From Brevibacillus humidisoli (GTDB taxonomy: Bacteria > Bacillota > Bacilli > Brevibacillales > Brevibacillaceae), in assembly GCF_020923435.1 (NCBI RefSeq), contig NZ_CP087263.1, positions 372,001 to 436,000 on the forward strand: 64,000 nt of DNA, in the 5' to 3' direction. The notes beneath the pieces were generated by a model that saw only the letters and a program-made list of their open reading frames with translations, was not told where the DNA came from and ran no database searches. Below, piece by piece: positions 23,086 to 43,495 of the stretch (position 1 is its first letter; every line of letters starts with the position of its first letter). The position numbers and the translations under genes are program-made.

Positions 23086-23106
23086 TCATCTGCTAACCGA
23101 TACTTA

Positions 23107-23578: not shown

Positions 23579-23596
23579 CAGGAGGAGGTGCAAATC

Positions 23597-24361: not shown

Positions 24362-24382
24362 AAAAACTGAAGGAGAGGGGAG

Positions 24383-24481: not shown

Positions 24482-24680
24482 ATTTAGAAGGCAGGATAAG
24501 GGGGCTCCGCCCCGTCATCCACAGATTGCAGACAAAGCCTGCAACAATACATTTTTAAACATCCGTAAGGTGGCGGAGGAAAGATCAGATGTTGTATCTT
24601 TCATCCGTTTTTGCATAAAAACGCTTGATGCAACTAGGGTTTTGACCTCCGTCTACACATCATTGGGGAAAGGAGAGGGA
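24482..24680. other. Candidate oriT region
   Basis: Non-coding stretch directly upstream of the RHH accessory and relaxase genes. It holds several short inverted repeats: GGGGC/GCCCC near 24501-24513, TTGCAG/CTGCAA (24526-24544) and TTGCAT/ATGCAA (24611-24633). It also holds three CATCC motifs, two of them CATCCGT (24560 and 24602), reminiscent of the (C/T)ATCCTG(C/T) nick core of MOBP relaxases. Position and structure fit an origin of transfer; the nick site is not established. Confidence 0.45.
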
Positions 24681-24682
24681 AC

Positions 24683-25069: not shown

Positions 25070-26328
25070 GCCGGGTTGCAAGCCCACTCGTCGTGAAGAT
25101 TGGCTTTTATACGTCCACTAAGGCGAATACAGCCAAAAACAAAGCACACGTCAATTACATTGCGACCAGGCCGGGAGCTGTAAAAGAAGTAGAGCCCCTT
25201 TACGAAGATTTCATCGATCCGGGGACAGCTGTTGGCCACATTAAATACGCCCAGGAGCGTCCGGGGAGTCACGGATTATTTGGACCTACGGAGGAAACGC
25301 ATCTGGATGACATCAAAAAGGAGTTAGGAAAACATCAAGGTGTTGTTTGGAGGCTCATCGTTAGCCTACGTGAGGAAGATGCCAAACGTTTGGATATGAC
25401 GACCCGCCGACAGTGGGAACAAAAATTACGTGCCGCTCTTCCAGATGTTGCAGACAAAATGGGCATACCACTTTCAAACCTTCGGTGGTGTGCCGCGTTT
25501 CATAAAGAACCTGGTCATCCGCATGTACACGTCATGCTGTGGGAAAAGGAACCGAAGAGAACAAGAGGGAAACTTTCACATGCAGAACGAAAGGACGTCC
25601 GTCGCACATTGGCTAAAGAAATCTATGCGGAAGAGAGATTGCACCTCAGCCGAGAAAAAACAGCGGAACGAGACCTTGTCCGCGAGATGGTCAAAGAAGA
25701 CGTGGACAAGATATTGTCATTACGGCAAGATCTACAACAACACCGAGAGGATGTGGTCCTGGAGCTCAAGATGACGGGACAGGGAGGCAAGGAGATTGCG
25801 CCTGGTGCCCCCACTGCACTCGCCCGTGAATTGCAATTGAGACTTGATGCGCTAGCGCAGCAGATGCCGACGAGAGGACGGATCGTGTTCAAGTTTATGC
25901 CGGAAGAGGTCAAGCAGAAAGTAATGGATATGGCCGATTGGGTTTTACAACAACCTGGAGTAAAGCAGCATGTTCGGAACTATTTACAGGCTCATGAGGG
26001 ACTAGCACGAATCCATGTACTACATCCAGATAAACGCAAAGAAGCGCAGAAAAGTGCTTATGAGGATCTCCAAAAACGGGTAAGTCAGGTCTTGCTAAAA
26101 GCGGCAGCGGATATCGATCGGGGTAGGAATCAAGAGCAGGAAGAGAGCTTGCAGGTGGTCCATGACCCGGTACATACGATATCAGCTTCGGTATCCGTTT
26201 CCCAATTTGTGTTCGGCAGCATCTTTCGTACCATCCAACGGGAGAGGGATAAAGCCGAAGCGAAAGCAGCATGGAAACAGCGAAAGAACGGAAGAAAGAG
26301 AAAAAGGAGCAAGGAAAGGGGGATATGA
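25066..26328 (+). CDS. MobP3-type conjugative relaxase
   Basis: 420 aa from GTG 25066. MobP3-like landmarks in order: VNYIATRPGA near the N-terminus (candidate catalytic Tyr), ERPGSHGLFG, VVWRLIVSLREEDAKRLD, and the three-His metal motif GHPHVHVMLW at about 150-159. The C-terminal half is helical and basic. It should nick oriT, stay covalently attached to the 5' end and be pumped out by the VirD4/VirB4 system encoded next. GTG start and overlap with the RHH gene show tight coupling. Confidence 0.87.
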   Translation: MSRVASPLVVKIGFYTSTKANTAKNKAHVNYIATRPGAVKEVEPLYEDFIDPGTAVGHIKYAQERPGSHGLFGPTEETHLDDIKKELGKHQGVVWRLIVSLREEDAKRLDMTTRRQWEQKLRAALPDVADKMGIPLSNLRWCAAFHKEPGHPHVHVMLWEKEPKRTRGKLSHAERKDVRRTLAKEIYAEERLHLSREKTAERDLVREMVKEDVDKILSLRQDLQQHREDVVLELKMTGQGGKEIAPGAPTALARELQLRLDALAQQMPTRGRIVFKFMPEEVKQKVMDMADWVLQQPGVKQHVRNYLQAHEGLARIHVLHPDKRKEAQKSAYEDLQKRVSQVLLKAAADIDRGRNQEQEESLQVVHDPVHTISASVSVSQFVFGSIFRTIQRERDKAEAKAAWKQRKNGRKRKRSKERGI

Positions 26329-26331
26329 CCC

Positions 26332-28233
26332 GTGTCAAAGAAAGCTCGGTTTGCGTTTTCATTGATTTCGCTCGAAGTGGTACTTCTTCCGTATCTGCTG
26401 GCGTTCTTGTGGTTGCTGAAAGAAACCCAAACGATTCGTGGCTTGCAGGATGTGTGGTTATCACACGTGACAACTGAACCGATCGGCACATACCTAAACG
26501 TTTTGAGCGATCCGACTTTGCTCAAAACTTTTTTGTTGCTTCAGGTCATCGTGGGGGCCTTTCTCCTCCAATTTCTTTGGCGACCAGAGAACAAGGTCCT
26601 CCGGCAAAAAAAGAGACGGTTGCGGGAGGGAGTCGGTGGTCCAGAAGCAGCAGGTGATGGACAACACGGTACAAGTCGGTGGCAAACCGAGGAGGAGCTG
26701 GATGCTTCGACTACGGTTTGGTATACCAATAAGCCACCACAAGAAACCGGATTAGTTATCGGCATGAGGAACGCCGGGAGAAAAAAGTTGAAGGTCTGGA
26801 AAATCACCAGAGATGGCCACAACCTGATCATCGGGGCAACTCGGTCTGGGAAGTCTCGCAGGTTGGTATTGCCGAGTATATGGAGCATTGCCCAAAAAGG
26901 GGAGAGCATGATTCTCTCAGACCCAAAAGGGGAGCTGTACGCACGTTCCCATAAATATTTACGGGAGCGTGGATACGAAGTGGTAATGCTTGATTTCCGT
27001 AATCCAAAAAGGGGAAATTACTGGAACCTGATGGATCCCATCATCCGGGGGATGGAAGAAGATGAATATGCCCGAGCTTCCGAGGCAGCCTGGGATATCG
27101 CTCATACCATCGTCCATCAAAAGCAGCATAATGGTGATCCGATTTGGGCAAACGGGCAAGAGAGTATCATTGCTGCACTCATGCAATTAGTTGCCGCAGA
27201 AGCCCAAATGGATGAGGAGAAACACCTTCATTCTGTTTACACCATCCTGTCAGAAATGGGAGAAACGATTCAGCTCCCCAATGGAATGGACTATAATCCC
27301 TTGCTGCAGTATTTGAGGAATCTTCCCATGGGGCACGTGGCACGAATGGCGTTAGCAACTGCTCGAGTCTCTCCAGAGAAAATGCGTTCTAGCTTCTTGG
27401 GTGGGGCGACCGTTGACCTTCGACTTTTTGCGGATCCATCTATAGCTCGGATGACGAGTAAACAAGACCATGACCTCGCGGGCCCTGGAAGACAAAAAAC
27501 GGCGGTGTTTATGATCATCCCGGACGAGAAATCAACAAGGCATGTGCTGGCAACTTTGTACGTTTCGCAAACCTATGAGGCTCTAGTCCAATTGGCAAAC
27601 CAGAACCACGGACGCCTGCCTGTCCGTGTGCACTATCTCTTGGACGAATTTGGAAACCTACCACCGGTTCCTGACTTCGGTACGAAGATTACGGTATCAG
27701 CGGGACGGGGGATTCTGTTTAATCTCATCATTCAGGATCTTGGTCAAATCCGCAAAAAATATAAAGACGATTACACGACGATCATCGGGAACTGCCAGAC
27801 ATGGATATACCTTTTGACACGGGATATTGATACAGCAAAGCAGTTGAGTGAGATGACGGGAAAATATACGGTTGCGACACAAAATCACTCGGCCAATGTG
27901 CAGACGAAGAGCATCTCAACTGGCTATTCAAGTGGCTTAACAAGCCGCCCGCTGTTGATGCCGGATGAGATCCTGCGATTTCCCCAAGATCAGGCGTTGG
28001 TGCTGCAAGCGAGGCAATTTCCGGCGATTACTCCATTACCTGACCTTTCTTTCTGGCCAGCAGATGGAGACTTGGAAGAGGCGGACGATCATTACGACAA
28101 ACCCATAACGTCCGAACCGGTTCGGGTATGGATTCCGGGAATGGAAGAGTCAGACGAAACTCCCCTCTACGAATATCCGGATGAGCCAGAAAGAAAGAAA
28201 AAATCAATCTTCGATGAAGATAAGGAGGACTAA
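26332..28233 (+). CDS. VirD4/TraG-type coupling ATPase (T4CP)
   Basis: 633 aa from GTG 26332. Two N-terminal membrane helices (about 8-30, 66-83), then a RecA-like motor with Walker A GATRSGKSRRLVLPS (about 168-182), the VirD4-typical SDPKGELYARS and Walker B VHYLLDEFGNLPP (about 432-444). The coupling protein recruits the relaxase-DNA complex and feeds it to the type IV channel. The acidic C-terminal tail is typical of substrate-docking ends. It starts 3 bases after the relaxase. Confidence 0.93.
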   Translation: MSKKARFAFSLISLEVVLLPYLLAFLWLLKETQTIRGLQDVWLSHVTTEPIGTYLNVLSDPTLLKTFLLLQVIVGAFLLQFLWRPENKVLRQKKRRLREGVGGPEAAGDGQHGTSRWQTEEELDASTTVWYTNKPPQETGLVIGMRNAGRKKLKVWKITRDGHNLIIGATRSGKSRRLVLPSIWSIAQKGESMILSDPKGELYARSHKYLRERGYEVVMLDFRNPKRGNYWNLMDPIIRGMEEDEYARASEAAWDIAHTIVHQKQHNGDPIWANGQESIIAALMQLVAAEAQMDEEKHLHSVYTILSEMGETIQLPNGMDYNPLLQYLRNLPMGHVARMALATARVSPEKMRSSFLGGATVDLRLFADPSIARMTSKQDHDLAGPGRQKTAVFMIIPDEKSTRHVLATLYVSQTYEALVQLANQNHGRLPVRVHYLLDEFGNLPPVPDFGTKITVSAGRGILFNLIIQDLGQIRKKYKDDYTTIIGNCQTWIYLLTRDIDTAKQLSEMTGKYTVATQNHSANVQTKSISTGYSSGLTSRPLLMPDEILRFPQDQALVLQARQFPAITPLPDLSFWPADGDLEEADDHYDKPITSEPVRVWIPGMEESDETPLYEYPDEPERKKKSIFDEDKED

Positions 28234-28236
28234 CAC

Positions 28237-28566
28237 ATGAAGAAATATCTTGCCGCTATCATACTGTTTGTCAGTCAACTTATGACGACATATGCTGTTT
28301 ATGCCGCCAAAGACAATATTTTAGTGACAGGAACGAAAGCTCTGCTCAATGATGCGTTGTTTTGGATTCTGATCCTGATTCCCGTTGCAGCTGCCGTAGC
28401 CATTGCATGGGCAAATTTTCAAAAGAAAGGAACGGAAGAACCGGCAGAGATCGCAGCCAAGGACAAGCTGATCAAAAAGTATATCTGGGCTGCGATAATT
28501 GGTGAGTGTTCGGCTGCTATTGTCAAACTCGTTTTGAGCTATTACGGTGTGACTGCGGACATATAA
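28237..28566 (+). CDS. VirB2/TrbC-like small membrane protein (pilin candidate)
   Basis: 109 aa with a signal-peptide-like N-terminus (KYLAAIILFVSQLMTTYAVYA) and two further helices (about 39-62 and 82-105). Size and topology match the VirB2/TrbC-like subunits found between virD4 and virB6/virB3 in Gram-positive conjugation loci. Sequence itself is not diagnostic. Confidence 0.55.
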   Translation: MKKYLAAIILFVSQLMTTYAVYAAKDNILVTGTKALLNDALFWILILIPVAAAVAIAWANFQKKGTEEPAEIAAKDKLIKKYIWAAIIGECSAAIVKLVLSYYGVTADI

Positions 28567-28582
28567 GAAGGGGGTATTTCAC

Positions 28583-29434
28583 TTGGATTGGATAAAACAG
28601 CTGATCCATGAATCCGTGATGTACTCCATGCAGAAACAGGTGGAGTCAATCGTCAACGAATACATGGGAGCACTCGTGTATTTGCGTGAAATCATCCTTG
28701 ACCTGTTAGCAAGCCATTATTTTACGCAAGCGATCCTCTACGTTCAGGGGATCGCTGCTTTAGTATTGGTGGTAAAAATCTCCTTTGAAGCCTGGAGTAC
28801 TCACATCCTGCGATTAAACGGAGATCCGGATGCGGATCCAGAAGGTTTGCTAAAGGGGGGGATTGCGTCTGGGGCAATAATCGCGACAGCTCCGTGGATT
28901 GTACAACAGGTGTGGATGTTTGGTCTATCTATTCAGAGAGACATTACGCAGTTACCAGGGACAGATTTGGGGTTTGAGCAAGATGCGCTCCTGAACTTCT
29001 TTCTCAATTGCCTTACTCTACCCGGTACCCTCTTTCTAGGGGTCATAGCCGCTCTGCTGATTTATCTACTTGTTGTGTTTCAAAGTATTATCTTTGCCAT
29101 TGAAACCAGCATCCTGGTGTTAATTGGTATGTGGATGGCATTGGGGTTGACGAATCCCCAATCCAGTTCATTTCAAATATGGTGGAAAGACCTACTGGGT
29201 ACCACCTTATTGCCTGGGGTACAATTACTGACTTTGAAGGGTGCCTTTGTCTTCTGGACTGATGTAAACGGGACGCCTGGGTTAAAATTACTTCTGTTTA
29301 TCTTATTGATGTTTGTCGCTTATAGGCTACCGCAACGAATACAAATGTATGTAGCATATTCGAGCAGCGGAGTTGGGAGAACAACGGTGAATATGGCGCA
29401 AACGGTGCTTACAAAACTCTTGATGAAGAGGTGA
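28583..29434 (+). CDS. VirB6/TrbL-like polytopic channel protein
   Basis: 283 aa from TTG 28583 (AAGGGGGT upstream). About five to six hydrophobic segments (about 42-68, 88-110, 134-160, 165-190, 205-225, 228-248). N-terminal amphipathic part and a C-terminal basic end. Position between the VirB2-like and VirB3-like genes and the topology fit the VirB6/PrgH class of conjugation channel proteins. Confidence 0.65.
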   Translation: MDWIKQLIHESVMYSMQKQVESIVNEYMGALVYLREIILDLLASHYFTQAILYVQGIAALVLVVKISFEAWSTHILRLNGDPDADPEGLLKGGIASGAIIATAPWIVQQVWMFGLSIQRDITQLPGTDLGFEQDALLNFFLNCLTLPGTLFLGVIAALLIYLLVVFQSIIFAIETSILVLIGMWMALGLTNPQSSSFQIWWKDLLGTTLLPGVQLLTLKGAFVFWTDVNGTPGLKLLLFILLMFVAYRLPQRIQMYVAYSSSGVGRTTVNMAQTVLTKLLMKR

Positions 29435-29440
29435 TAGGGA

Positions 29441-29746
29441 ATGTACCTAATCCCCAAAAATGTGAACACACGATTCGAATTTCGGGACGGGGTAGGATGG
29501 AAAGAGATAGTGGTCATGCTGGCTGGTGTGGGAGTCGGACTGATCCTCTTTTTTCTACTGGGTTTGTTCTCTACTGGTTTGTTTATTCGACTGATCCTTT
29601 TGGCTGCCCCGATTATCGGGGCGTTTTTCCTCATCCAGCCGCACCCAATGACCAAACAATCGGTTCTAGATACGTTGTGGATGGCTCATCGTTTTCGTCG
29701 CTCGAAGAAACGATACTTGTATAAGTTTGGAGGAGATCGGGTATGA
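29441..29746 (+). CDS. PrgI/VirB3-like conjugation protein
   Basis: 101 aa. N-terminal MYLIPKNVNTRFEFRDGVG is typical of PrgI/VirB3 proteins, then two close helices (about 24-45 and 48-65) and a basic tail ending in KKRYLYKFGGDRV. Overlaps the next gene by ATGA. VirB3 anchors VirB4 at the membrane, and VirB4-type genes follow. Confidence 0.75.
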   Translation: MYLIPKNVNTRFEFRDGVGWKEIVVMLAGVGVGLILFFLLGLFSTGLFIRLILLAAPIIGAFFLIQPHPMTKQSVLDTLWMAHRFRRSKKRYLYKFGGDRV

Positions 29747-30387
29747 ACTTGAATAAGCTGAAGGAGTTCCTCCCTCGCAAGATAACGCAACATCATCAGA
29801 AAGGAAGCGTCCAATCCTGGATACCGGTTCAGGACGTGGCAGAGCACCATATGACTCGTCAGGATCGCTGGCATGTTGCAGGAATACGAGTTTCTCCAAA
29901 AAATATTGATTTATTAAGTCAACGAGAGCGGAAAAGATTAATCCACCATCTCAAGGAAGTGCAAAACGGACTCCGTGGTCACTATCAGATCTATTGTGTT
30001 GGCCGCTCAGTAGATTTGGATGGGTACATGTCCCATTTGGAAGAGATAAAGGCCAAAACTGAGGATCCGATTCGAAAGAAAATTCTTCAGTCACAAATTA
30101 AACAAGCTGCACAAACGGCGATTTCCGGCGAGTCACTGGAAACGCTATTTTTTATTCTATTTGCCGCAGAACACAAAGCGGAGCTGATCGAACTCGTCAA
30201 GCATCTGGTAACGGAACTGCGAAACAAGGGAATCGGCTGTTACGTGTGTGATCACAAGGAGTTGATGGACATGCAATTTGTCTTCACCCATCCTGTTCAG
30301 GCCGCTTACGAACGGATACCGGAAGATACCAAAGATTATTTACCGCCACAATTTTTGAATCCGGAAAGGATGAAAGCACTTGGCTAA
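29743..30387 (+). CDS. VirB4 N-terminal-domain-like protein
   Basis: 214 aa, no P-loop. The pattern WHVAGIRVSPKNIDLLSQRERKRLI, then YQIYCVGRSVDLDGYMSHLE and a hydrophobic-helical segment ending in DHKELMDMQFVFTHP, resembles the N-terminal domain of VirB4/TrbE proteins. The neighbouring VirB4 already has its own N-terminal domain, so this seems an extra, separately encoded copy. It overlaps the VirB4 start by 8 bases. It could be a docking subunit between VirB3 and VirB4. Confidence 0.55.
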   Translation: MNLNKLKEFLPRKITQHHQKGSVQSWIPVQDVAEHHMTRQDRWHVAGIRVSPKNIDLLSQRERKRLIHHLKEVQNGLRGHYQIYCVGRSVDLDGYMSHLEEIKAKTEDPIRKKILQSQIKQAAQTAISGESLETLFFILFAAEHKAELIELVKHLVTELRNKGIGCYVCDHKELMDMQFVFTHPVQAAYERIPEDTKDYLPPQFLNPERMKALG

Positions 30388-32185
30388 GAATCCGAAAAAA
30401 ACGGCTCCGGCCATGGGAAACTTTCTTGACTTGATCAGCCCATCCGCTTTGAAATTTGAGGAAAGGCGGGTCGTAGTGGGTGACCAATATCAACAGATTC
30501 TGGTGATCGTCGATTACCCGGAGAGTGTAGAAGTGGCTTGGCTCTCCCGTGTCGCCAATCTCCCTGGTGTGGTATGCAGCATCCACGTAGAATCCACATC
30601 CTCTGCAGACCTGTTGGACCATTTGAAAGTAGCCATGGGAGAACTGCAAGGAAAACTCCTGCAAGGCGGTAATCCATACTCTTCGATGATGACGGAAAAG
30701 AAATTTAACCACGCGAAGGAACTGGTCAAAAAAATAACGGATGAGCAGCAATGTGTTTTCCACGTAACCGTTGTTCTTGGGGTAACTGCTCCTAATGAAA
30801 AAACACTACGAGCAAGAGTGAAAAATGTAGAGCAGACGTTAGCTGGTTTACAGCTGCGAGTGCGTACAGCTGTGTATCGGCAGGAAGATGGATATAAGGC
30901 AGCGGGTCCTTGGGTAACGTTGCCAAAGTCGATCCGTGAAATGGGTGCTAGAAATATGCCTGCTGAAAGTGTAGCTGGTTCTTTCCCATTTACCTCAAGT
31001 AACTTAAACGATGGCAGGGGTATCCTTTTGGGAACGGATCGATCAGATGGTGTCGTTCTTCTGGATATTTGGAAGCGCGAGGGAAGTCGCACAAACTCGA
31101 ACATGCTGCTCACCGGTCGTCCGGGTGTCGGAAAATCCACAACCGTGAAAAAAATCATTTACAACGAATACGGTCAAGGCAGAAAAGTCATCAAGATTGA
31201 TCCAGAACGAGAGTACAAAGACTTGTGTCAGTACGTAAAAGGCAACTGGATTAATTGCGGAGGAGGAGCCGGTGGTCGCATTAATCCGTTGCAAGTTCGC
31301 ATCGTACCGTTGGACGATGAAGAGGAGGAAGCCATTGAAAATGGGTTGGCAGAGTACCGTCCTCTTGCGCATCACTTCCAAACGTTGCGAACGTTTTTTT
31401 CTCTCTACTTACGTGACTTGACTGGGGAGGATCAGGCTCGGTTGGAAATGGCGTTGGAGGAGGTGTACCACCGTTTTGACATTCAATGGACCACACGACC
31501 CGAAGACGTGCCTAACGACTCTTGGCCACATATTGGACATCTACATGAGTGGATTGAACAAAGTAGCAGGAAGGCAGCGGAATGGGAGCGACTTGGACTA
31601 CGCCTGCGCAGTGCCGCAAAAGGAGCCGATTCGGCTTTGTGGGCAGGGCATTCCACGATAACGGATCAAGCAGAATTTACCGTTCTGGACATCAAGAATT
31701 TAATGGATGGAAGTCAGAATGTCATTGCAGCCCAATACTTCAACATGCTCACGTGGGCATGGAACGAAATCGCGTTTAATCGGTATATAGAAGTTCTATT
31801 TGGAATGGACGAGGGATATCTCATTGCGGATCCGAAAGCACCCGATGCTCTACGGACCGTCCGAAATATCTCGAAACGAATCAGGAAATACAGAGGGGGC
31901 CTATTCTTCATCACTCATAACTTTGAAGATTTGCTCCATGATGATGTACGACTATACGGTCAGTCACTTATCGATAACCCAACGTATAAGGTCATCATGC
32001 CGCAAGGGGAGAAGGACATTCAGATCCTGACTCCCCTTCTGCATTTATCCGAGCAGGAAGTGGATTTGCTCGAAAAAGGAGGGCGTGGGGATGCTCTCCT
32101 CATCGCAGGTAACCGGAGGCTGTATGTGAAGATCGAGCCGACGACAGAGGAGTTGGAGATTTTCGGTTCGGCGGGTGGCTTGTAA
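30380..32185 (+). CDS. VirB4-type conjugation ATPase
   Basis: 601 aa from TTG 30380. N-terminal domain about 1-220, motor about 235-590 with Walker A TGRPGVGKSTTVKK (about 245-258), VIKIDPEREYKDL, the conserved INPLQ and a Walker-B-like VLFGMDEGYLI (about 472-482). C-terminal ILTPLLHLSEQEVDLL is typical of VirB4. It energises assembly of the type IV channel. It ends with TAATG overlapping the M23 gene. Confidence 0.92.
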   Translation: MAKNPKKTAPAMGNFLDLISPSALKFEERRVVVGDQYQQILVIVDYPESVEVAWLSRVANLPGVVCSIHVESTSSADLLDHLKVAMGELQGKLLQGGNPYSSMMTEKKFNHAKELVKKITDEQQCVFHVTVVLGVTAPNEKTLRARVKNVEQTLAGLQLRVRTAVYRQEDGYKAAGPWVTLPKSIREMGARNMPAESVAGSFPFTSSNLNDGRGILLGTDRSDGVVLLDIWKREGSRTNSNMLLTGRPGVGKSTTVKKIIYNEYGQGRKVIKIDPEREYKDLCQYVKGNWINCGGGAGGRINPLQVRIVPLDDEEEEAIENGLAEYRPLAHHFQTLRTFFSLYLRDLTGEDQARLEMALEEVYHRFDIQWTTRPEDVPNDSWPHIGHLHEWIEQSSRKAAEWERLGLRLRSAAKGADSALWAGHSTITDQAEFTVLDIKNLMDGSQNVIAAQYFNMLTWAWNEIAFNRYIEVLFGMDEGYLIADPKAPDALRTVRNISKRIRKYRGGLFFITHNFEDLLHDDVRLYGQSLIDNPTYKVIMPQGEKDIQILTPLLHLSEQEVDLLEKGGRGDALLIAGNRRLYVKIEPTTEELEIFGSAGGL

Positions 32186-33102
32186 TGCCACTTGCCATCC
32201 GGGTTTTACTCTTTCTTTTACCGAAGAATCGAAACGCGATGGCAGGTGTGATCGGGCTTATCTTCCTGCCGTTCGTGCTGTTTTATGTGATGATTTCATC
32301 TGCCATATCGGTCTTACACGTGCCGGCGATTGAACCGAGTCAGATGGATTTTTATAAAAATGCAGTGGACGCGATACAAAAGGATACAGGGGTCAGGACT
32401 GAATGGCAAGAACTTGTTGCGATTGATGCTGTACGGTTCAACCAGGATTTTCAGAAGGCATCTCCCACTGGCGCCAGGAGATTGGCTCGTAAGTTCATCC
32501 GAATTGAAAAGGAGACCAATGAGAAGGGAGAGGTTGAAACCCATTACTACAAGAAATCTCTCGAAACAGTCGTAGAGGAAATGATACAAGATGGTCTGCT
32601 GGTCGAAGGTGACCTACAAAGAATCAAGCAATATCTATTGTTGCCATGGGATACGGGAGGTGTTGGTTCTCTCCCTGATGGGTATGTGCCGGTTCCTAGT
32701 GAGGGTGGACTGGTGTTTCCTGTAGTAGGGCAATGGGTTGTCACAGACGGTTTTCATGAGCGAATCAATCCGGTTACCGGGAGATATGAATTCCACCGTG
32801 GGATTGACCTGGCTGCAGAGAGCGGTACACCTGTGGTGGCTGCAAGGGCAGGGAAAATTGTTTTTGCAGATGAGAATGGCAGCGCGGGTAACGAAGTGAA
32901 AATCGATCATGGTGACGGCACGAAAACAAGGTATCTCCATCTGGATTCCATTATGGTGCGAAGAGGGCAGTTCGTAGAAGCAGGAGAGCTCATTGGCAGT
33001 GTTGGATCCACCGGACGCTCGACTGGCCCTCACCTTCACTTTGAGTTTCATGTAAATGGTAGACCAGTAGATCCAGCTTTTTATCTATTCTCAAATGACT
33101 GA
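32185..33102 (+). CDS. Membrane-anchored M23 endopeptidase (VirB1-like wall hydrolase)
   Basis: 305 aa. One membrane helix (about 19-45), an extracytoplasmic linker domain (about 55-150), then an M23/LytM domain (about 175-300) with the zinc ligands in FHRGIDLAA and PHLHFEF and the core YLHLDSIMV. Gram-positive conjugation systems use such hydrolases to open peptidoglycan for the channel. Start overlaps the virB4 stop (TAATG). All active-site residues are present. Confidence 0.88.
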   Translation: MPLAIRVLLFLLPKNRNAMAGVIGLIFLPFVLFYVMISSAISVLHVPAIEPSQMDFYKNAVDAIQKDTGVRTEWQELVAIDAVRFNQDFQKASPTGARRLARKFIRIEKETNEKGEVETHYYKKSLETVVEEMIQDGLLVEGDLQRIKQYLLLPWDTGGVGSLPDGYVPVPSEGGLVFPVVGQWVVTDGFHERINPVTGRYEFHRGIDLAAESGTPVVAARAGKIVFADENGSAGNEVKIDHGDGTKTRYLHLDSIMVRRGQFVEAGELIGSVGSTGRSTGPHLHFEFHVNGRPVDPAFYLFSND

Positions 33103-33120
33103 ACGAAGGAGTGAGGAAAG

Positions 33121-34269
33121 GTGTTTGGAATCGTATCCGCTAATTTGGATGGTTTGATTCAGGAGGCAATAGGGGAACCGCCTATCTTTCAATCAGATGG
33201 TTCGTCCATCCGTGATGAACTCGATGCTGCTGCTAGAGCTGCCATCCGAACATTAGTCATTGACTTGGATTGCTTAGCAGAGGACGAGGGGTTGATGGCA
33301 CTTAGAAGCTACCGGCGAAGAAGACCTCACACCCGCATTATTCTGTTAGGGATAAATAGGGTGCCGGGTGATTCGGTTTTGGCTAGATGTGTATCCCTGG
33401 GGATCTACGATGTTGTCAATATCGAAACAGACGGAAAGGATGAGGAGCAAGTACGTTCTCTCATCCTTTCTTCGTTACAGAGACAGCTGGCACAACCGGC
33501 TGCAACCTATGCCGATGCAGCCAGATGGGATATTTACGACAGCCCCTTTTCTCGCGTGAACAAGACAGTAAAATCTATTGGAACAGAAGGGGCGAACATC
33601 AAAAGCGTTGTGATTAAAGAGCGGCTGATCGGAACGCCCGTCATCGTGATAACAAGTGCGACGAAAGGAAGTGGCTGCACGTATGCTGCTATCCAATTAG
33701 CACAGTTGCTGCAGAACTTCGGGAAAGTGGCATGCTTGGAGCTGCAGCATGGTGACTCTGCAGGGAGTTTGCCGTTATTGACAACGGAACATGTGGAAGG
33801 TGTTTTTCAGGTAAAAGGGATGCCGCATATCGACTTTGCTTACGTAAAAAGGACGACAGACGTAACAAAACAGAAAAAATATGACTGGATTGTGGTGGAT
33901 GCCGGGTACTGGAAAGATCGGTCGGATGACACCATAGACGAGTGGGAAAGAGCTACTGTTGGATGTGTGACGGTTGCTCCTTCTCCCTGGGGATATTTTG
34001 AGTATCTAAAACAGATGGACTCTATTTCACGACACCGGCAGGATTGGATATTGCTGCTACAACACCCATCGGCGGGTCAGGAAAAAAAGATTAAGCAGGA
34101 CATGGCAGAATATTGTCTGCCGATTTACTCGTTACCGTATCAACCGGAGGTATTTTCTCTATCTGATGAAACCGCAGGTGTACTTCAATCCGCATTTCAT
34201 CAAACCTTACCACAGTCGGTAGCGAAGAAGAGAATAACCTTTCGATTTCCTTGGTGGAGATCCTCATGA
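33121..34269 (+). CDS. CpaE-like protein with receiver-like N-terminus and altered P-loop
   Basis: 382 aa from GTG 33121. Residues about 1-125 resemble a receiver fold with a VIDLDCL strand and IILLGI, as in CpaE. The ATPase-like part starts near 175: IVITSATKGSGCTYAAIQLA keeps the signature lysine but has Cys in place of the P-loop lysine. YDWIVVDAGYW supplies the Walker-B-like strand. It is therefore probably inactive or weakly active as an ATPase. Third relative in this window; here it sits in the conjugation operon rather than the Tad operon. It overlaps the next gene. Confidence 0.75.
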   Translation: MFGIVSANLDGLIQEAIGEPPIFQSDGSSIRDELDAAARAAIRTLVIDLDCLAEDEGLMALRSYRRRRPHTRIILLGINRVPGDSVLARCVSLGIYDVVNIETDGKDEEQVRSLILSSLQRQLAQPAATYADAARWDIYDSPFSRVNKTVKSIGTEGANIKSVVIKERLIGTPVIVITSATKGSGCTYAAIQLAQLLQNFGKVACLELQHGDSAGSLPLLTTEHVEGVFQVKGMPHIDFAYVKRTTDVTKQKKYDWIVVDAGYWKDRSDDTIDEWERATVGCVTVAPSPWGYFEYLKQMDSISRHRQDWILLLQHPSAGQEKKIKQDMAEYCLPIYSLPYQPEVFSLSDETAGVLQSAFHQTLPQSVAKKRITFRFPWWRSS

Positions 34270-34643
34270 TGTTGGGCACAAAGTTTGTTCCCGAACACCT
34301 GGTGAGTCTTCTACAAAAAATTGCTAAGGTTCCTTTGTCGAACCATGCGGGCAAAGCACATTACGAGCTGGTGGATTTTTTGGAGCAAGAATCGTTCTTT
34401 TGTGAGTGTGAACATACCATTTATCACCTGGACGGACGTCAGGAGCGCGTTGATGTCATGGCACATCGGGATGGGGAAGTCTTGGCAATTGAGGTTGACT
34501 CTCAATTGAAAAGAAAATCCGTGATGAGGTTGTCTCAACTTGAAGGAGGTGATCTCTACCGCATCATTGTAATTTTGAAAGGTACTTGCAAGAAAGTACC
34601 CGATGATATACACGCTGTTGTGAAGGTCCCGATCAAAGAGTGA
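34266..34643 (+). CDS. Small PD-(D/E)xK-nuclease-like protein
   Basis: 125 aa from ATG 34266 (GGTGGAG upstream, overlapping the preceding stop). The order YELVDFLEQE, then RQERVDVMAHRDGEVLAIEVDSQLKRKSV resembles the small restriction-endonuclease-like fold (E, D and ExD in place of ExK). Lys is absent at the usual place, so activity is uncertain. Alternative: an adaptor with the same fold. Confidence 0.5.
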   Translation: MMLGTKFVPEHLVSLLQKIAKVPLSNHAGKAHYELVDFLEQESFFCECEHTIYHLDGRQERVDVMAHRDGEVLAIEVDSQLKRKSVMRLSQLEGGDLYRIIVILKGTCKKVPDDIHAVVKVPIKE

Positions 34644-34683
34644 GGTTTTTCCTGACCAGAGAAAAAAAGTAAAGGATGTGATA

Positions 34684-35565
34684 ATGGTGGAGCGTGACGT
34701 CATTCTTCAGGCGCGGCAGACGGATCTCCCTTCTTTTTTGTGTTCGATGGGATTTGACCTGAAGAAAGAGGGAAAGAATTACCGGCTCACCAGTTACAGT
34801 GGTGTCCTCGTGCGGGACAATATGTATACGGATTTTGCGAATGGGAAAAGTGGAAATGCCGTTGACTTCTGCATGCAGGTGCTCCACTTACCTTTTCATG
34901 AGGCGGTTGAGGCTTTAAACAAGTATGGTGCGAGAGTACAATTGCCTGAATCCCTGTCAAAAGAGGCCAAGCAAGAACAGCCGGTTGTGTTGCCCGAACG
35001 TGCTGAAAATTACAGAAGAATATTTGCATATTTGCATCGTACGCGAGGCATTCCGGTATCACTGATCCAGGAGTTAATCAGAGAGAAGCTGCTGTATCAG
35101 GATTGCAAAGGGAATGCCGTTTTTATTTGCCGGGATGAAAGTGGTGAGGCAAGAGGGGCGATGATCCGGGGAACCCTAACCGGCAAGAGCTTTAAACAAC
35201 GGATTGGTAGCGGAGAATTTCCCTTTATTTGGGGAGCTGCAGTAGGAAAAACAACTTTAACGCTAACGGAAGCACCTATTGAGGCTCTTTCTATTGCGAC
35301 ACTCTATCCTGAAAGCCGTCAGTCTATCTTGGTATCCTTAGGTGGGATTGATTTCATAAGTAGTGTAGAAAAACTACTTGAACAGTATCTGATTAAGCGG
35401 CTTGTCTTGTCCTTTAATAATGATCGACCAGGAAGAGAAGCTGTCCAACGATTTACGGAACGCTTTGGCCACCAAGTGGAGGTCAAGGCGTTTTTACCTT
35501 CTGCGGAGGATTGGAATGAACACTTATTAACTCATAAAAGTGGAACTCAATGTTTGGAAAGATAA
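34684..35565 (+). CDS. DUF3991/Toprim primase-like protein
   Basis: 293 aa from ATG 34684 (AAAGGA 7 bases upstream; GTG 34678 overlaps it). The N-terminal part (about 1-90) has the primase CHC2 layout (YTDFANGKSGNAVDFCMQVL) but no zinc-binding Cys/His. DUF3991-like middle (about 105-180), Toprim domain about 190-280 with LTLTEAPIEALS (Glu motif) and VLSFNNDRPGREA (DxD replaced by NND). Such proteins accompany relaxases and Rep genes on Firmicutes elements and may prime the transferred strand. The loss of zinc ligands and the changed DxD weaken the case for activity. Last gene before the IS1634 insertion. Confidence 0.75.
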   Translation: MVERDVILQARQTDLPSFLCSMGFDLKKEGKNYRLTSYSGVLVRDNMYTDFANGKSGNAVDFCMQVLHLPFHEAVEALNKYGARVQLPESLSKEAKQEQPVVLPERAENYRRIFAYLHRTRGIPVSLIQELIREKLLYQDCKGNAVFICRDESGEARGAMIRGTLTGKSFKQRIGSGEFPFIWGAAVGKTTLTLTEAPIEALSIATLYPESRQSILVSLGGIDFISSVEKLLEQYLIKRLVLSFNNDRPGREAVQRFTERFGHQVEVKAFLPSAEDWNEHLLTHKSGTQCLER

Positions 35566-35590: not shown

Positions 35591-37512
35591 CCCGAGTTCG
35601 ACAGTTGCTAGGTAAATGAAATGCCCGTCATCCCTTGTGCAGTCTGGGTTTTCGGGCATAAGCATGTAAAACGGCGTGTATCTATGACTTGGGTTGGATT
35701 TCGAGGAACCTCGGAGGAGCCTCAATCCCAAGCGTATCAAAGGTTTTTCGTTGTTTGGCGGTCAATTCGGTGCTCTGGTACACGTCTCCGTTTTTCGAAG
35801 AAAAATGTCCGAGATGGATGCGATCCAGTTCCTTGCGCAATGCACTCCAAGTTTCGCCGGTTTCCACCTCGACAATGCGCACCAACAGCAACGCCAGCCA
35901 ACTGAGTAGAATATGCGCGCGAATGCGCTCCTCCAGACGATGAAACATCGGGCGAAGTTCTAGTGTCGTCTTCAGCGTACGGAACGCATCCTCCACATCG
36001 ACGAGTTGCTTGTAGCCAAGCGCCACATCTTCCGCGGAAAGCGTGTCATCCGAAGTTCGGATCAAATACTTGCCGTCGTACTTCTCCGCATCGCGGATCG
36101 CCTGCTTATCCAGCTTGAGCGTCCCGTCCTTGAGCTGGCGCAAATACTTTCCGTAGGTCGTATGGGAGCGCAACTTACACGTTGCCTTCGTATGGGCTTG
36201 GCCGCTCAACGGCTTGAGTGCATCCAGTTCCACTTGCAGGTGGTCGATCATCTGTTCACGGCGAAGGCGATCCCGCTCAGCTTCCCTGGGATTGTGAACC
36301 AAGACATAGCGCTTGCGTGCTTCTCCATCACCGACGACGATGTCCTTGACTTGCAGATTCTCGCGAACATGATGGTATCGGCCTTTGCGGCTCATCGCTG
36401 CGTCCGTCGTTTCTTTGCCGGATCGCATTTTCTCCCCAACAATATAATGACCGCCTGTGCGCTGCAATGTGCGCAAGTTGTCTTCGGAGGAGAATCCCCG
36501 ATCCATGACGCTGATCACTCTGCCGAGTTTCCAGCCGACCAAGTCGCGCTTGACCTGATCGACGACGGACATATCCGACGTATTGCCCGGCCATACCCAC
36601 GAGCGGATCGGAATGCCTTGACGGGTGACAGCCAATCCGATGACGACCTGAACCAGATCCGGACGTTTGTCCTTCGAAAATCCCTGCTTACGCAAGGTGT
36701 CGTCTTCCGGTACATCGAACGGATCGACTTCGAAGTAAGAGGAGGTGGTGTCGAAGTAGAGCAGATCGACCTCCAGATTCAGCAAATCTGAGACAGAGCA
36801 ATACACCTGGTGCTCCAGCTCCGACTGAACGTCCAGCAGTTCATCCATCGCCCGGTACAGTTGCTGACTGCTTACCTCGCTTATGCCTGGCAGATACACA
36901 TCTTCCTTCACCCAATCTTCCATGGCCAGCTTGCTCGAGGGATTCAGCGCCCGATTCGCCACCATGGCGAAGATCAGACGTTCAATCGACGCTTGATGCT
37001 TGCGATCGCTGAACAGTTTCTCGAGGATCACATCCAGGCCGATCTTGTGCCACAGTTGATGGAGCAACCAGGCCCCACCCAGACGTTTGCTGGACTGGAA
37101 CAGGAACTGCGCCGTTTCGCCGATCGCATTCTGTACTTGCAAAGCCGCTTCCGGCGTAAGATAGCGGGCGATGCTTTGCACCAAGCGTTCCAGGACTGAG
37201 CGATCGATTTCATCTTCGCGACCGAACGAGTAAATGACCTTGGCTTTGGCGTGTTTAGCGATGGGATCCCATTCATTGTGTGCTAATTGGAGGTAAGCGG
37301 TTGTGGATCCATTTTTATTTTTTCGAGAAACGCGACGTATATACATGCCTATATAATATCATAACAAATCGCTATATACAAGAAATATAAACCAAAACGT
37401 GTGCCTATGAAAATTCGTATTTTTTTCTATTGGCAAACCCGAAGACCCTTGCTATTATGCGATTCTTGATTTTTCATGTGCCCCAAAATGCCGATTTACT
37501 GTCGAACTCGGG
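35591..37512. mobile_element. Intact IS1634-family insertion sequence
   Basis: 1922 bp bounded by perfect 15-bp terminal inverted repeats (CCCGAGTTCGACAGT at 35591-35605 and its complement at 37498-37512) and a 5-bp TTTAA duplication. It contains one transposase gene on the minus strand. Identical termini and an open gene suggest recent insertion, 25 bases after the Toprim gene. Confidence 0.92.
35682..37346 (-). CDS. IS1634-family transposase
   Basis: 554 aa, uninterrupted. DDE transposase of the IS4 superfamily: N-terminal MYIRRVSRKNKNGSTTAYLQ, first Asp region VDLLYFDTTSSYFEV, second Asp VISVMDRGFSSEDN, and the late YREK-like region with VEDAFRTLKTTLELRPMFH. Lengths and motifs match IS1634 family members. 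The base composition is more GC-rich than the flanking genes, consistent with a foreign source. The long frames on the opposite strand are shadows. Confidence 0.93.
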   Translation of the reverse strand: MYIRRVSRKNKNGSTTAYLQLAHNEWDPIAKHAKAKVIYSFGREDEIDRSVLERLVQSIARYLTPEAALQVQNAIGETAQFLFQSSKRLGGAWLLHQLWHKIGLDVILEKLFSDRKHQASIERLIFAMVANRALNPSSKLAMEDWVKEDVYLPGISEVSSQQLYRAMDELLDVQSELEHQVYCSVSDLLNLEVDLLYFDTTSSYFEVDPFDVPEDDTLRKQGFSKDKRPDLVQVVIGLAVTRQGIPIRSWVWPGNTSDMSVVDQVKRDLVGWKLGRVISVMDRGFSSEDNLRTLQRTGGHYIVGEKMRSGKETTDAAMSRKGRYHHVRENLQVKDIVVGDGEARKRYVLVHNPREAERDRLRREQMIDHLQVELDALKPLSGQAHTKATCKLRSHTTYGKYLRQLKDGTLKLDKQAIRDAEKYDGKYLIRTSDDTLSAEDVALGYKQLVDVEDAFRTLKTTLELRPMFHRLEERIRAHILLSWLALLLVRIVEVETGETWSALRKELDRIHLGHFSSKNGDVYQSTELTAKQRKTFDTLGIEAPPRFLEIQPKS

Positions 37513-37944: not shown

Positions 37945-38454
37945 TTATCGCTCCATATTTATATCCTTTCTTTGTGCCCCTGACAACAAACGCTTTTCAA
38001 CTTCATATTCGATAAGTTGACTGATGGTCTTCTGCAGCTGCAGTGATGAGATGAGCAGCAAATCTAAACTGATCATATCTTCTGGCAATAACTCCCCGAC
38101 CTTCCTCTCCAAGAGGTGCCGCGAGATGGACCGAATTTGCTCCGTTTTGATAAAGCTATCTTTTACAATGGTTCCTCTGTATGTATTATCAGCGGCAGCA
38201 TAGTCTTTTGCAGATAGAATAAGATCAGTACGGGTGGTCTCTTTCTTCTCTCCCTCTTGATTATAAAGAGAAGTGATAGGTAGAATGGTAACTGTCTTTC
38301 TTGGAAAATCACTATCGAAAAGAACAACACAACGATGAGATCCCCTTAAAATACGTGAAGGATCTGGCTCTACAGGTGGTTCTGCAGGTAGATCGACGAA
38401 GAAAACCTCGCCACGTTTAAAGGTACGTTTTTGGTTCCATTCTGGATTTCTCAA
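37945..38454 (-). CDS. PemK/MazF-like toxin
   Basis: 169 aa from TTG 38454 on the minus strand (GGGGGGAAGG upstream). MazF-type barrel signatures: FKRGEVFFVDLP, RGSHRCVVLFDSDF, KTVTILPITS and a C-terminal helix region with IKTEQIRSISRHLL. Toxins of this family cut mRNA at short motifs. It is longer than typical MazF (about 110-120 aa) through an insert around GEKKETTRTDL and a longer C-terminus. It follows a small gene by 19 bases, the antitoxin-first order of type II modules. Confidence 0.82.
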   Translation of the reverse strand: MRNPEWNQKRTFKRGEVFFVDLPAEPPVEPDPSRILRGSHRCVVLFDSDFPRKTVTILPITSLYNQEGEKKETTRTDLILSAKDYAAADNTYRGTIVKDSFIKTEQIRSISRHLLERKVGELLPEDMISLDLLLISSLQLQKTISQLIEYEVEKRLLSGAQRKDINMER

Positions 38455-38473
38455 TAACCTTCCCCCCAGTCTG

Positions 38474-38695
38474 CTATTCAGATGAGAGTCTAACAGCGTC
38501 TTGGTAGTGCTTAAACCTTAGCCGCTGATTTTCTTTCTCGTCACCGATTGCAACCTTGGAGAAGTCGATACCAGTTTGCTTATATAGTTTTGAAACGGCT
38601 TTCTCCATTGAAGAACGTGAGGCTGCTTGTTCAGCAAGTTGCATACGGTTAGCTTGCAATCTTTTAGCTCGAAACGGAATGATTTTTTGATCCAC
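38474..38695 (-). CDS. Putative antitoxin
   Basis: 73 aa from GTG 38695 (AGGAA 9-13 bases upstream on the minus strand; GTG 38704 abuts that site). Small, basic, helical, with no recognised DNA-binding motif. Called antitoxin because it directly precedes the PemK-like gene and matches the size of such partners. Confidence 0.58.
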   Translation of the reverse strand: MDQKIIPFRAKRLQANRMQLAEQAASRSSMEKAVSKLYKQTGIDFSKVAIGDEKENQRLRFKHYQDAVRLSSE

Positions 38696-38805
38696 TCGAA
38701 CCACTTCCTATGCTCTCATTTGTCATTATTATAACCTAAACTGGGGGGAATTAGTAGATAGTATGATGGTACCCAGTCAATTTAATACCAAATATTGATG
38801 AAGGA
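38688..38805. repeat. Repeat copy A: antitoxin 5' end and upstream region
   Basis: About 118 bp that recur, diverged, at 49065-49182. Shared blocks include TTGATCCACTCGAACCACTT and GTAGATAGTATGATG. Each copy is followed by IS3-type debris. Confidence 0.75.
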
Positions 38806-39228: not shown

Positions 39229-41322
39229 ATGATTACCATTATCCGCGGTAGTTCTAATAAACCCATATCAAGCCAACACTTAGTGGATTATTTTGAGCAA
39301 CGTTCTGATTTAGAAGGTATTTTGTATCTTGGATACCCGATCATAGGTAGTGTTGATGGTTCGATTAATATCGATGCCATGCTTGTTTCCCCTAGCTTTG
39401 GGATGATTATATTTGACCTTGTTGAGGGAATCAACTTTGAAGATCGAACTGAGATCCGAGATGACCTTTATACAAAGATATATTCAAAGTTAATCGATTA
39501 TAAATCACTTAGTGTTCGAAGAAAACTTCAAGTGAAAATAAGCGTTGCTACCTATGCTTCGGGTTGGAGTACTCGGCTGGAGGATGAACCTGAAGTGGTT
39601 ACTTCTCATGAAGCTTTGGATACTTACTTAAGCGATATAACTTGGCAGAACAATGAGTATTATAGAGTATTATTGCAGGCGATACAAGCAGTTACAAATA
39701 TCAAGAGTACACCTAAAAGAGAAAATGTAACAAAACCCAACTCCAAGGGAGCAATCCTTAAATCGTTAGAAGATTCTATAGCTAACTTGGATAGTAACCA
39801 GAGTGCAGCAGTTATAGAAACTTCTGATAGTGTTCAAAGGATACGCGGGTTAGCAGGATCAGGTAAGACAATCGTACTTGCATTAAAAGTTGCTTACTTA
39901 CATTCTAAAAATCCTGAGTGGAATATTGCAGTAACATTTAATACTCGTTCATTGAAAAAGCAATTTGAAGATTTAATAACTCGATTTACGTATGAACACA
40001 AAAGGGATAAACCCGACTGGGATAAGATCAAGATAATGCAGGGGTGGGGAAGTCCATCGAATAAGGGAATATACTACGAAGTTTGTAAACAACATGATAT
40101 TGAGTATTTTGACTATACTGCTGCCAAAAATGCTTATGAGGGGAGTTTTGCGGCCGTTTGCAGGAAAGCATTATCGGATATTCAAAAATTTATCCCGATG
40201 TACGATGTGATTTTAATCGATGAGGCTCAAGATTTTTCGCGGGAGTTCTTGACGCTTTGTTACGAAATCTTGACACCACCAAAAAGGCTAATATTTGCTT
40301 ATGACGAACTTCAAACATTAAGTCGTAATTCTATGCCACCAACGGAGGAAATTTTTGGGTGTGATGAAAGAGATAGACCCAGGGTTGTTTTGCGAAATGA
40401 ACGAAATAAACCGAAGCAAGACATCATTTTGAGGGTGTGTTATCGGAACTCAAGACCAGTTCTCGCAACTGCACATGCTCTTGGCTTTGGGGTATACAGA
40501 GAAGACGGCATGGTTCAAATGTTTGGAGATAAGTCACTATGGCTTGATGTTGGCTACCAAGTTATTGACGGCGCATTAAATGATGGAGAAAAAGTAAAAC
40601 TGGGGAGGAACGCTGATTCTAGCCCAGAGTTCTTGGAAAATCATTCACCCATTGATGATTTAATTCAGTTCAAATGTTTCGAAGATGTTCACCGACAAGA
40701 AGAGTGGATTGTTCAAGAAATATACAAGAATTTGACCCAGGATGAGTTGCGTCCACAGGATATCATGGTTGTTCACACTGACCCATTAACAACCCAAGAT
40801 GCGGTGGGGAATATGCGCAGACGATTATTTGAAATGGGCATCAATACACATCTGGCAGGTGCAGCAAATCCTGACTTGTTTAATAAAGATGATTCGGTAA
40901 CATTTACTGGGATTTATCGTGCAAAAGGAAATGAAGCAGGGATGGTGTATGTAATAAATGCTCAGAACTGCTACAGTGGGATGGAATTGTCAAAAAAGAG
41001 GAACATTTTATTCACCGCAATAACTAGGAGTAAAGGTTGGGTTCGTGTGACTGGTTACGGTGAAGATATGTTAAAACTGACTCGAGAGTATCAAGAAACA
41101 AAGGATAGAAATTTCGAACTCCATTTCACATATCCCACAGCTGATATGAGAAAGAAAATGAATATTATTCATCGCGATATGACAAGGGATGAAAAGAGGT
41201 TCGTTGAGTCCAGTATTGAGAACCTCACTGAGATTGTTAAAGCAATTCGCCGCAAGGAAATTTACCTTGAAGACTTGCCCCAAGAATTAAGGGAGGCTTT
41301 GAAGGTGATTTTCGATGAGTAG
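39229..41322 (+). CDS. UvrD/Rep-like superfamily 1 helicase with N-terminal nuclease-like domain
   Basis: 697 aa. ATG 39229 has TGGAGG 6 bases upstream; the in-frame ATG at 39199 lacks a site. Residues about 1-150 resemble a NERD-like nuclease fold (LGYPIIGSVDGSINIDAMLV, then FGMIIFDLVEG). Helicase motor: Walker A IRGLAGSGKTIVLALK (about 205-220), motif II VILIDEAQDFSREF (about 328-341), later motifs GIYRAKGNEAGMVYV and ILFTAITRSKGWVRVTGYG. The last 8 bases overlap the DUF2290 gene, so the two proteins are made together. It sits among IS elements, typical of defence islands. Target and mechanism unknown. Confidence 0.85.
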   Translation: MITIIRGSSNKPISSQHLVDYFEQRSDLEGILYLGYPIIGSVDGSINIDAMLVSPSFGMIIFDLVEGINFEDRTEIRDDLYTKIYSKLIDYKSLSVRRKLQVKISVATYASGWSTRLEDEPEVVTSHEALDTYLSDITWQNNEYYRVLLQAIQAVTNIKSTPKRENVTKPNSKGAILKSLEDSIANLDSNQSAAVIETSDSVQRIRGLAGSGKTIVLALKVAYLHSKNPEWNIAVTFNTRSLKKQFEDLITRFTYEHKRDKPDWDKIKIMQGWGSPSNKGIYYEVCKQHDIEYFDYTAAKNAYEGSFAAVCRKALSDIQKFIPMYDVILIDEAQDFSREFLTLCYEILTPPKRLIFAYDELQTLSRNSMPPTEEIFGCDERDRPRVVLRNERNKPKQDIILRVCYRNSRPVLATAHALGFGVYREDGMVQMFGDKSLWLDVGYQVIDGALNDGEKVKLGRNADSSPEFLENHSPIDDLIQFKCFEDVHRQEEWIVQEIYKNLTQDELRPQDIMVVHTDPLTTQDAVGNMRRRLFEMGINTHLAGAANPDLFNKDDSVTFTGIYRAKGNEAGMVYVINAQNCYSGMELSKKRNILFTAITRSKGWVRVTGYGEDMLKLTREYQETKDRNFELHFTYPTADMRKKMNIIHRDMTRDEKRFVESSIENLTEIVKAIRRKEIYLEDLPQELREALKVIFDE

Positions 41323-41977
41323 TATTTCACAATTGTTGTATACAGAAGTGATGGATGTAACAACTTTGCTGATCTCATTTAATCTAAGTATCGATCAAAA
41401 CTTTCCATCTAATCGTGAAATAGTGGATAAAGGAACAGTCTTTGAAGTAATAGACTGGGGTAAGACAGATACATTATCGATAGTGTTTAAGAATGTCGAA
41501 TACAAGGTAATATACGATGAATTGAACAATGGTAGGAATTTCAATATTAAAATGATTGATGGTGCATTGATTCAACTAATGTATAAGGCTAAGAGGAATG
41601 AAATTGTTTCCCATAGATTAGCTTTCTTCCCCAATCCTTACTTAGAGAAGTTTCAGAACGATCCAGAAATATATGAGAAGGCAGACCTTTATGCAGATAT
41701 ACTTGCTAAAAATATAGTCCCGGTACCTATTAGATTTGACTTTAATGCGGATGTTCATGACGAGATGCATGCAATGTCCCATGCTTCATTTGGTCAGTAT
41801 AAAAATTGCCGAATACCTGTTTGCTCACCCTTAACTCCTTCAAAGTTCATTGATTTCATATTGAGGAACTTCTATTCGAGTGCTTATCGAGAGTATCGAA
41901 ATGATTATGAGAGCAATATCTCATTTGGTCGAACGATTACATCTGATGAAGAAAAGCTTGTTCACTTCAATTTCTAA
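41315..41977 (+). CDS. DUF2290 protein, partner of the helicase
   Basis: 220 aa from ATG 41315, overlapping the helicase gene by 8 bases. Matches what I know of DUF2290 (PF10053): VSHRLAFFPNPYLEKFQNDP, VPIRFDFNAD, SHASFGQYKNCRIPVCSPLT and FIDFILRNFYSSAY. No catalytic chemistry is known for the family. Two conserved Cys and a possible His-rich stretch (VHDEMHAMSHASFGQ) could bind metal. Its strict pairing with an SF1 helicase makes a helicase-accessory role in defence or repair likely. Confidence 0.75.
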   Translation: MSSISQLLYTEVMDVTTLLISFNLSIDQNFPSNREIVDKGTVFEVIDWGKTDTLSIVFKNVEYKVIYDELNNGRNFNIKMIDGALIQLMYKAKRNEIVSHRLAFFPNPYLEKFQNDPEIYEKADLYADILAKNIVPVPIRFDFNADVHDEMHAMSHASFGQYKNCRIPVCSPLTPSKFIDFILRNFYSSAYREYRNDYESNISFGRTITSDEEKLVHFNF

Positions 41978-42028: not shown

Positions 42029-43495
42029 GGGTCTGTCAAGATTTTTGTGTAAACTTAATCAACCGATATATGAAAAGGTTTCATCCCATAATCGGAACAT
42101 CTTTCTCGTAGCCAATGGGGGTCAAGGGCGTAAGGCGTAGCAAACCCTTGACCTGATTGGCGAAGAGAAAGACAATCTTTTTGGGGATGAAGCCTTTCAT
42201 TTTAACGAATGTACGGTTGTACTCTCTCTTCAAAGAATACGGATAGTTGTAACAGGATCTGTCCCCAGTTTTGGACTCGTCCCGTCCATTTCCGTAAGAC
42301 ATCCATCGTCACGAGATAAAGCATTTTGAGAAGGGCTTCGTCCGTTGGAAATACAGCTTTTCCTTTCGTAACTTTCCGTAATTGTCGATGGTAACTCTCA
42401 ATGACATTCGTCGTGTAAATGAGTTTTCGAATCTCTGGTGGGTATTTGAAGAAGGTGGCGATTTCGGCCCAATTGTTCCGCCAGGAACGTACCAACAAGG
42501 GATATTTGTTACCCCAGGACTGTTCAAAATGATCGAGTTCTTCTAAGGCTGCTTGCTCCGTTGGAGCCTTATAGATCGGCTTAAGCTCTGACGTAATCTT
42601 CTTCAAGTCCTTGTATGACACATACTTGATGGAATTCCGAATCTGATGGATGATGCACTTCTGAATTTCTGTCTTCGGGTAACATGCCGATATGGCTTCT
42701 GTAAAGCCTTTCAGGTTGTCAACGGAAGTGATTAAAATATCTTGGACACCACGGTTCTTCAACTCGTTAAGTACGTGGAGCCAAAACTTCGCGGATTCAT
42801 TTTCCCCGATCCAGATGCCAAGGACATCTTTGTGGCCATCCAGATCGATGCCAATGACCATATACGCAGCCTTATTGACGATGGCTCCGTCCTGCTTTAC
42901 CTTAAAATGAATCGCATCCATGAAAACGACAGCGTACACCGATTGCAGGGGACGATTCTGCCACTCTTTAATCAAGGGAATGATTTTGTTCGTTACGTTG
43001 GAAATGAGTGTTGGCGAGACCTCAATGCCATAGAGCTGCTGCAGGTGATCTTGAATGTCGCGAGTGGATACCCCTTTGGCGTACATGGCAAGAATCTGAT
43101 CTTCGATCCCTGTAACGTTTGACTGGTGTTTCTTCACGATAACGGGATCAAACTCTCCCTCTCGATCCCGTGGTACCTGAATGTCGATATCACCATATTC
43201 GGAACGAACGGTCTTCTTGCTGTATCCATTGCGACTGTTCGTGGTTCGTTTGTTTTTGGAGTCATGCTTCGCGTAGCCAAGTTCAGTCTCCAATTCGGCT
43301 TCCAGCATCTCCTGGATGGTGTCAGCGAACAGCTCTTTTAAAGCTGATTGCACATCCTCCATCGACTTCATGTTCTTTTCCTTAATCCACTGCCTGAGTT
43401 GCTCTTTTGGTATGAGGCTCATAAAAAATCCCAACCTTTCTAAGTTAATTGTAAATGAGTAGGTTGAGAGTTTACACAAAATATTTTATAGACTC
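42029..43495. mobile_element. Intact IS256-family insertion sequence
   Basis: 1467 bp with imperfect terminal inverted repeats of about 26 bp (both ends share TTTTGTGTAAAC and an outer GTCT) and an 8-bp GCTGAAAG duplication, as expected for IS256. It carries a complete transposase on the minus strand. Confidence 0.92.
42202..43422 (-). CDS. IS256-family (mutator-type) transposase
   Basis: 406 aa from ATG 43422, starting MSLIPKEQLRQWIKEK. An upstream in-frame start at 43479 lies almost in the terminal repeat and is less likely. DDE residues sit in VYAVVFMDAIHFKV, ILITSVDNLKGFTEAI and the C-terminal IYTTNVIESYHRQLRK, with the family hallmark CIIHQIRNSIKYV. No interruptions. Confidence 0.94.
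   Translation of the reverse strand: MSLIPKEQLRQWIKEKNMKSMEDVQSALKELFADTIQEMLEAELETELGYAKHDSKNKRTTNSRNGYSKKTVRSEYGDIDIQVPRDREGEFDPVIVKKHQSNVTGIEDQILAMYAKGVSTRDIQDHLQQLYGIEVSPTLISNVTNKIIPLIKEWQNRPLQSVYAVVFMDAIHFKVKQDGAIVNKAAYMVIGIDLDGHKDVLGIWIGENESAKFWLHVLNELKNRGVQDILITSVDNLKGFTEAISACYPKTEIQKCIIHQIRNSIKYVSYKDLKKITSELKPIYKAPTEQAALEELDHFEQSWGNKYPLLVRSWRNNWAEIATFFKYPPEIRKLIYTTNVIESYHRQLRKVTKGKAVFPTDEALLKMLYLVTMDVLRKWTGRVQNWGQILLQLSVFFEERVQPYIR

Follow-up and report, generated by a model that had tools for sequence, protein, structure and literature searches.

A predicted anti-phage Helicase+DUF2290 gene pair adjoining a conjugative element in the chromosome of Brevibacillus humidisoli

On the evidence of full-length profile matches, two overlapping genes of Brevibacillus humidisoli are an intact member of the described Helicase+DUF2290 anti-phage/anti-mobile-element system, and activity of this copy against phages is predicted. 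The first gene (39229..41322, plus strand) encodes an SF1 (UvrD/PcrA-like) helicase of 697 amino acids, and the second (41315..41977, plus strand) a DUF2290 protein of 220 amino acids (PF10053, E = 3.8e-51), the proposed effector; positions are those of the window, the whole stretch of 64,000 nucleotides that was analysed. Residues 1-695 of the 697 of the helicase matched the PADLOC model PDLC03002 ('Helicase') with 1081 bits, the second-best model being that of the NERD+UvrD candidate (C3a187) with 58 bits, and the DUF2290 protein matched PDLC02999 with 270 bits.

Rousset et al. (2022) cloned a helicase and DUF2290 pair from a P4 satellite and observed specific inhibition of T7; in the same work the pair was present in P4 satellites and prophage hotspots alongside phage-defence systems (PMC9122126). 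It is catalogued in PADLOC, in DefenseFinder (Rst_HelicaseDUF2290) and in several surveys. The proposal of a candidate two-gene defence operon made in the preliminary description is thus supported by the PADLOC matches of both proteins and by the T7 inhibition exerted by another family member, whereas a described system made up of these two genes, of which that description knew none, does exist, the pair having been described in 2022 and named in both catalogues. A novel system was ruled out by the full-length PADLOC matches and the literature, and the locus is a further example of a known system. The window pair shares with that system both genes, their order and coupling, the full-length profile matches and the carriage by mobile elements, and differs from the member studied by Rousset et al. 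in lying on a chromosome next to a conjugative element rather than in a P4 satellite. Compared to an E. coli chromosomal pair, the helicase is 48% and the DUF2290 protein 40% identical.

A second described member is the pair PA1372 and PA1371 of Pseudomonas aeruginosa PAO1 (PMC11637435), which resembles the window pair, as far as its description goes, in being a named Helicase+DUF2290 pair, mobile and of low GC, but is known through a plasmid cost rather than through a phage assay. Mutations in PA1372 abolish the cost, the SOS induction and the high rep expression due to plasmid pNUK73 (PMC4410645, PMC4208098); the cost was attributed by San Millan (2015) to raised rep expression and not to an effector. 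The loss of SOS induction and fitness cost together with PA1372 would be in keeping with a response of the system to foreign replication.

Both ORFs of the window pair are complete and co-directional, and they overlap by 8 bases (41315..41322, plus strand), as had been noted before, so that translational coupling across the overlap is likely. An in-frame ATG at 39199 could serve as an alternative start of the helicase, but the start at 39229 was favoured because GGAGG stands just before it. Promoter and terminator scans gave results that were not above chance. The GC content of the helicase gene (39%) and of the DUF2290 gene (34%), versus roughly 46% around them, fits a recent acquisition.

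Since the 4.9-Mb genome is a single contig, the locus is chromosomal. The pair is located between a PemK/MazF-like toxin gene (37945-38454, minus strand) and an IS256/Mutator transposase gene (42202-43479, minus strand), and a 76-residue ORF upstream of the toxin gene (toxin and ORF spanning 37945-38704 on the minus strand) matched no family. The setting described previously is therefore confirmed for the toxin gene and the IS256 element; the IS debris also mentioned there, at about 38.8-39.1 kb in the interval that separates toxin from helicase, resembles by eye a decayed IS3-type transposase, but Pfam gave no support for it, the one piece searched (53 residues) having no match. To the left lie a DDE_Tnp_1 transposase gene (35682-37346, minus strand) and, further left and adjoining the pair, the genes of a conjugative element integrated in the chromosome (21640-35565). 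These encode a ParM/Alp7A-like protein (21640-22695), a MobL relaxase (25066-26328), a TraG/TraD coupling ATPase (26332-28233), a VirB4/TraG-like ATPase (30380-32185), an M23 peptidase (32185-33102) and a Toprim/DUF3991 protein (34678-35565), and with the nearby transposases they bear out the mobile-element context proposed for the pair. Upstream of the conjugative genes, at 10522-13921, RcpC/CpaB-like and T2SSE-type ATPase genes resembling those of Flp/Tad pili were observed.

Genomes, plasmids, E. coli and IMG/VR were searched for DUF2290 homologues, and IMG/VR also for homologues of the helicase. The helicase gene was directly upstream of the DUF2290 gene and on the same strand in all 33 uncut and undecayed loci, the window included, with a gap of -23 to +43 nucleotides in the 27 loci with full-length genes. 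Among loci found via DUF2290 alone, 21 of the 22 that could be judged had the SF1 helicase adjacent, as had been expected for this pair (a count that leaves out L011, a 34-residue fragment match, and L023, a match at a contig end), and in the helicase-first search of IMG/VR a DUF2290 gene came next wherever the contig continued. The sole exception, L004, is a decayed remnant in which a near full-length DUF2290 sequence without a start of its own is preceded by unrelated sequence and in which no helicase was found. Pairwise identities of the two proteins were correlated (r = 0.88, a value that none of 2000 permutations attained), a parallel divergence to which the common descent of linked genes contributes. 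The linkage of helicase and DUF2290 is near-obligate.

Tight coupling and the invariable first position of the helicase, as in many antitoxins, would also suit an abortive system of the toxin-antitoxin type, with DUF2290 as toxin and the helicase as antitoxin or trigger. We regard this as very unlikely, as a 697-residue SF1 ATPase would be an unusual antitoxin and the remnant L004 keeps its DUF2290 sequence in spite of having no helicase, even though, with its start lost, it may not be expressed. Separate toxin-antitoxin genes were observed beside or near the pair, as in the window, in five loci on unrelated elements (L013, L014, L015, L016 and L022), where they belong to the BrnTA, RelE/HTH, UPF0175/DUF3368, addiction-module antidote and ptaRNA1 types.

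DUF2290 was present in 4 of 99 relatives, the own genome included, and in 5 of 398 genomes sampled from the phylum, and it was absent from both other genomes of the same genus and from 14 of 14 control genomes; because of this rare and patchy distribution the pair was considered an accessory system. That it is instead a housekeeping DNA-repair module, as its UvrD/PcrA-type motor might suggest, is highly improbable in view of the same counts, of the low GC content (34-39% versus about 46%) and of the mobile context.

The carriers of the pair include plasmids, integrated elements and viral contigs. DUF2290 relatives were found in IMG/VR contigs, and none was encoded in the INPHARED phage records at the sensitivity used. 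Type I restriction-modification genes lay near the pair in L012 and L019, type III genes in L035, and the pair of L016 (1-10648, plasmid pTHIMO01 of Thioflavicoccus mobilis) stands inside a BREX operon among brxC, PglX-type methylase and PglZ genes; these neighbours are individual examples, and no enrichment is claimed from them. In L016 the pair is flanked by methyltransferase genes.

That plasmids, integrated elements and viral contigs carry the pair, that a conjugative element adjoins it in the window and that the pNUK73 cost depends on PA1372 could all be understood if the pair mainly targeted plasmids or other mobile elements in a competition between elements, anti-phage activity being a side effect. 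We consider this unlikely, given that resistance to T7 was shown directly for another family member and that P4 satellites and prophage hotspots also carry the pair, together with phage-defence systems (PMC9122126).

The UvrD-like nature of the helicase was confirmed by Pfam (UvrD_C_2, E = 4.5e-10, and the UvrD-helicase N-terminal domain above cutoff), and a sequence profile search with it found PcrA. Walker A (GLAGSGKT, residues 207-214, 39847..39870, plus strand), Walker B/motif II (DEAQD, residues 331-335, 40219..40233, plus strand) and the motifs RAKGNEA and FTAITRSK are all present, and their core residues do not vary in the family; G207-T214 and DEAQD are invariant in 14 aligned homologues. 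The AF2 model (pLDDT 87) resembles SF1 helicases, its best fold matches being the helicase parts of group III Schlafen proteins (SLFN11/SLFN14), with human SLFN11 at E = 1.4e-16; at 12% identity and a TM of about 0.4, this is a resemblance of the SF1 core rather than membership.

The NERD-like character attributed earlier to the same protein stands in part. Residues 12-109 are predicted to follow a helix-strands-helix-strand order, which suits a NERD/PD-(D/E)XK-like domain predicted at residues 1-110, but Pfam NERD matched none of the 18 helicases searched. The E-x-K of the PD-(D/E)XK fold is not conserved either, positions 63-66 being variable, while D49 is kept in 25 of 30 helicases. The domain is therefore unlikely to cut DNA, and a NERD nuclease as the effector was rejected on these two grounds; the lack of a conserved E-x-K leaves DUF2290 as the candidate enzyme.

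Other systems share parts of this architecture. Gabija (GajA/GajB) also joins a UvrD-like helicase to an effector partner; however, GajB profiles match the window helicase weakly and partially, with 29 bits at best, and GajA is an OLD/TOPRIM nuclease instead of DUF2290, no GajA profile of PADLOC matching the window pair. NERD+UvrD (C3a187) and Nhi have the SF1 core in common with the window helicase, on which they scored 58 and 30 bits, respectively, compared to 1081 for the Helicase model. Hachiman (HamA/HamB) is functionally alike, with two genes for a sensor helicase and a small effector nuclease (PMC12278908), but HamB is a Ski2-like SF2 helicase (PMC12839542) and HamA is not DUF2290. Within the phylum, four helicase relatives (L047-L050; E about 1e-65, match covering residues 141-648) look like a sister branch of the helicase of the pair and are possibly a separate defence branch. 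The two that were scanned, L048 and L049, have an N-terminal DUF4145, one of them is followed downstream by an N6 DNA methylase gene, and no DUF2290 neighbour was seen among their listed ORFs.

Six residues of DUF2290 (D82, R140, H152, H156, R166 and F178) are the same in all 34 proteins compared, of which 32 also have D142. Five of the six invariant residues are polar or charged, in proteins that reach down to about 17-20% identity, which suggests a candidate active site in the stretch R140-x-D142 ... H152-xxx-H156 ... R166 (41732..41812, plus strand). The AF2 model (pLDDT 78, pTM 0.79) had no significant match among PDB folds (best E = 0.3) and none among viral folds (BFVD), and no sequence relative was found in the PDB. 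Because the model has no PDB or BFVD match, the enzyme class is a guess; a literature search found no biochemical test of DUF2290.

As the NERD-like domain is unlikely to be a nuclease and DUF2290 carries an active-site-like invariant set, we propose an arrangement of sensor and effector. The helicase, by means of its nuclease-dead NERD-like domain and SF1 motor, would recognise aberrant or foreign replication structures such as ends or forks of phage or plasmid DNA. Its ATP-driven engagement would activate or deliver the co-translated DUF2290 protein, in which the R-x-D...H-xxx-H...R constellation would be the catalytic effector site; our best guess at the chemistry is a nucleic-acid or nucleotide phosphodiesterase. 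We infer, at what we judge to be an even chance, that abnormal DNA in replication is sensed by the helicase, which then licenses DUF2290 as the effector; that foreign replication is what is sensed is deduced by analogy from T7 and pNUK73, both in other family members.

Alternatively, the helicase itself could be the effector, unwinding or stripping replication intermediates of phages or plasmids, with DUF2290 as a non-catalytic loader or specificity subunit. The compensating mutations in PAO1 fall in the helicase gene, with none reported in PA1371, and the helicase is better conserved (mean column identity of 58% in a 14-member alignment versus 38% for DUF2290 in an 18-member alignment), both of which agree with such a role. 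We nevertheless hold it to be rather unlikely, since the invariant polar R/D/H/H/R set in so divergent a protein as DUF2290 (down to 17-20% identity) looks like an active site and not like an interface.

The locus itself is ordinary, and the question worth pursuing is the function of DUF2290. Given the invariant residues, a DUF2290 protein with no structural relative in PDB or BFVD and the connection with the plasmid cost in PAO1, the mechanism of the system could be tested with a few point mutants. Tentatively, and at somewhat less than an even chance, DUF2290 may be an enzyme of new fold whose active site is R-x-D...H-xxx-H...R and which is licensed by an SF1 helicase sensing foreign replication; a single system would then restrain both phages and plasmids.
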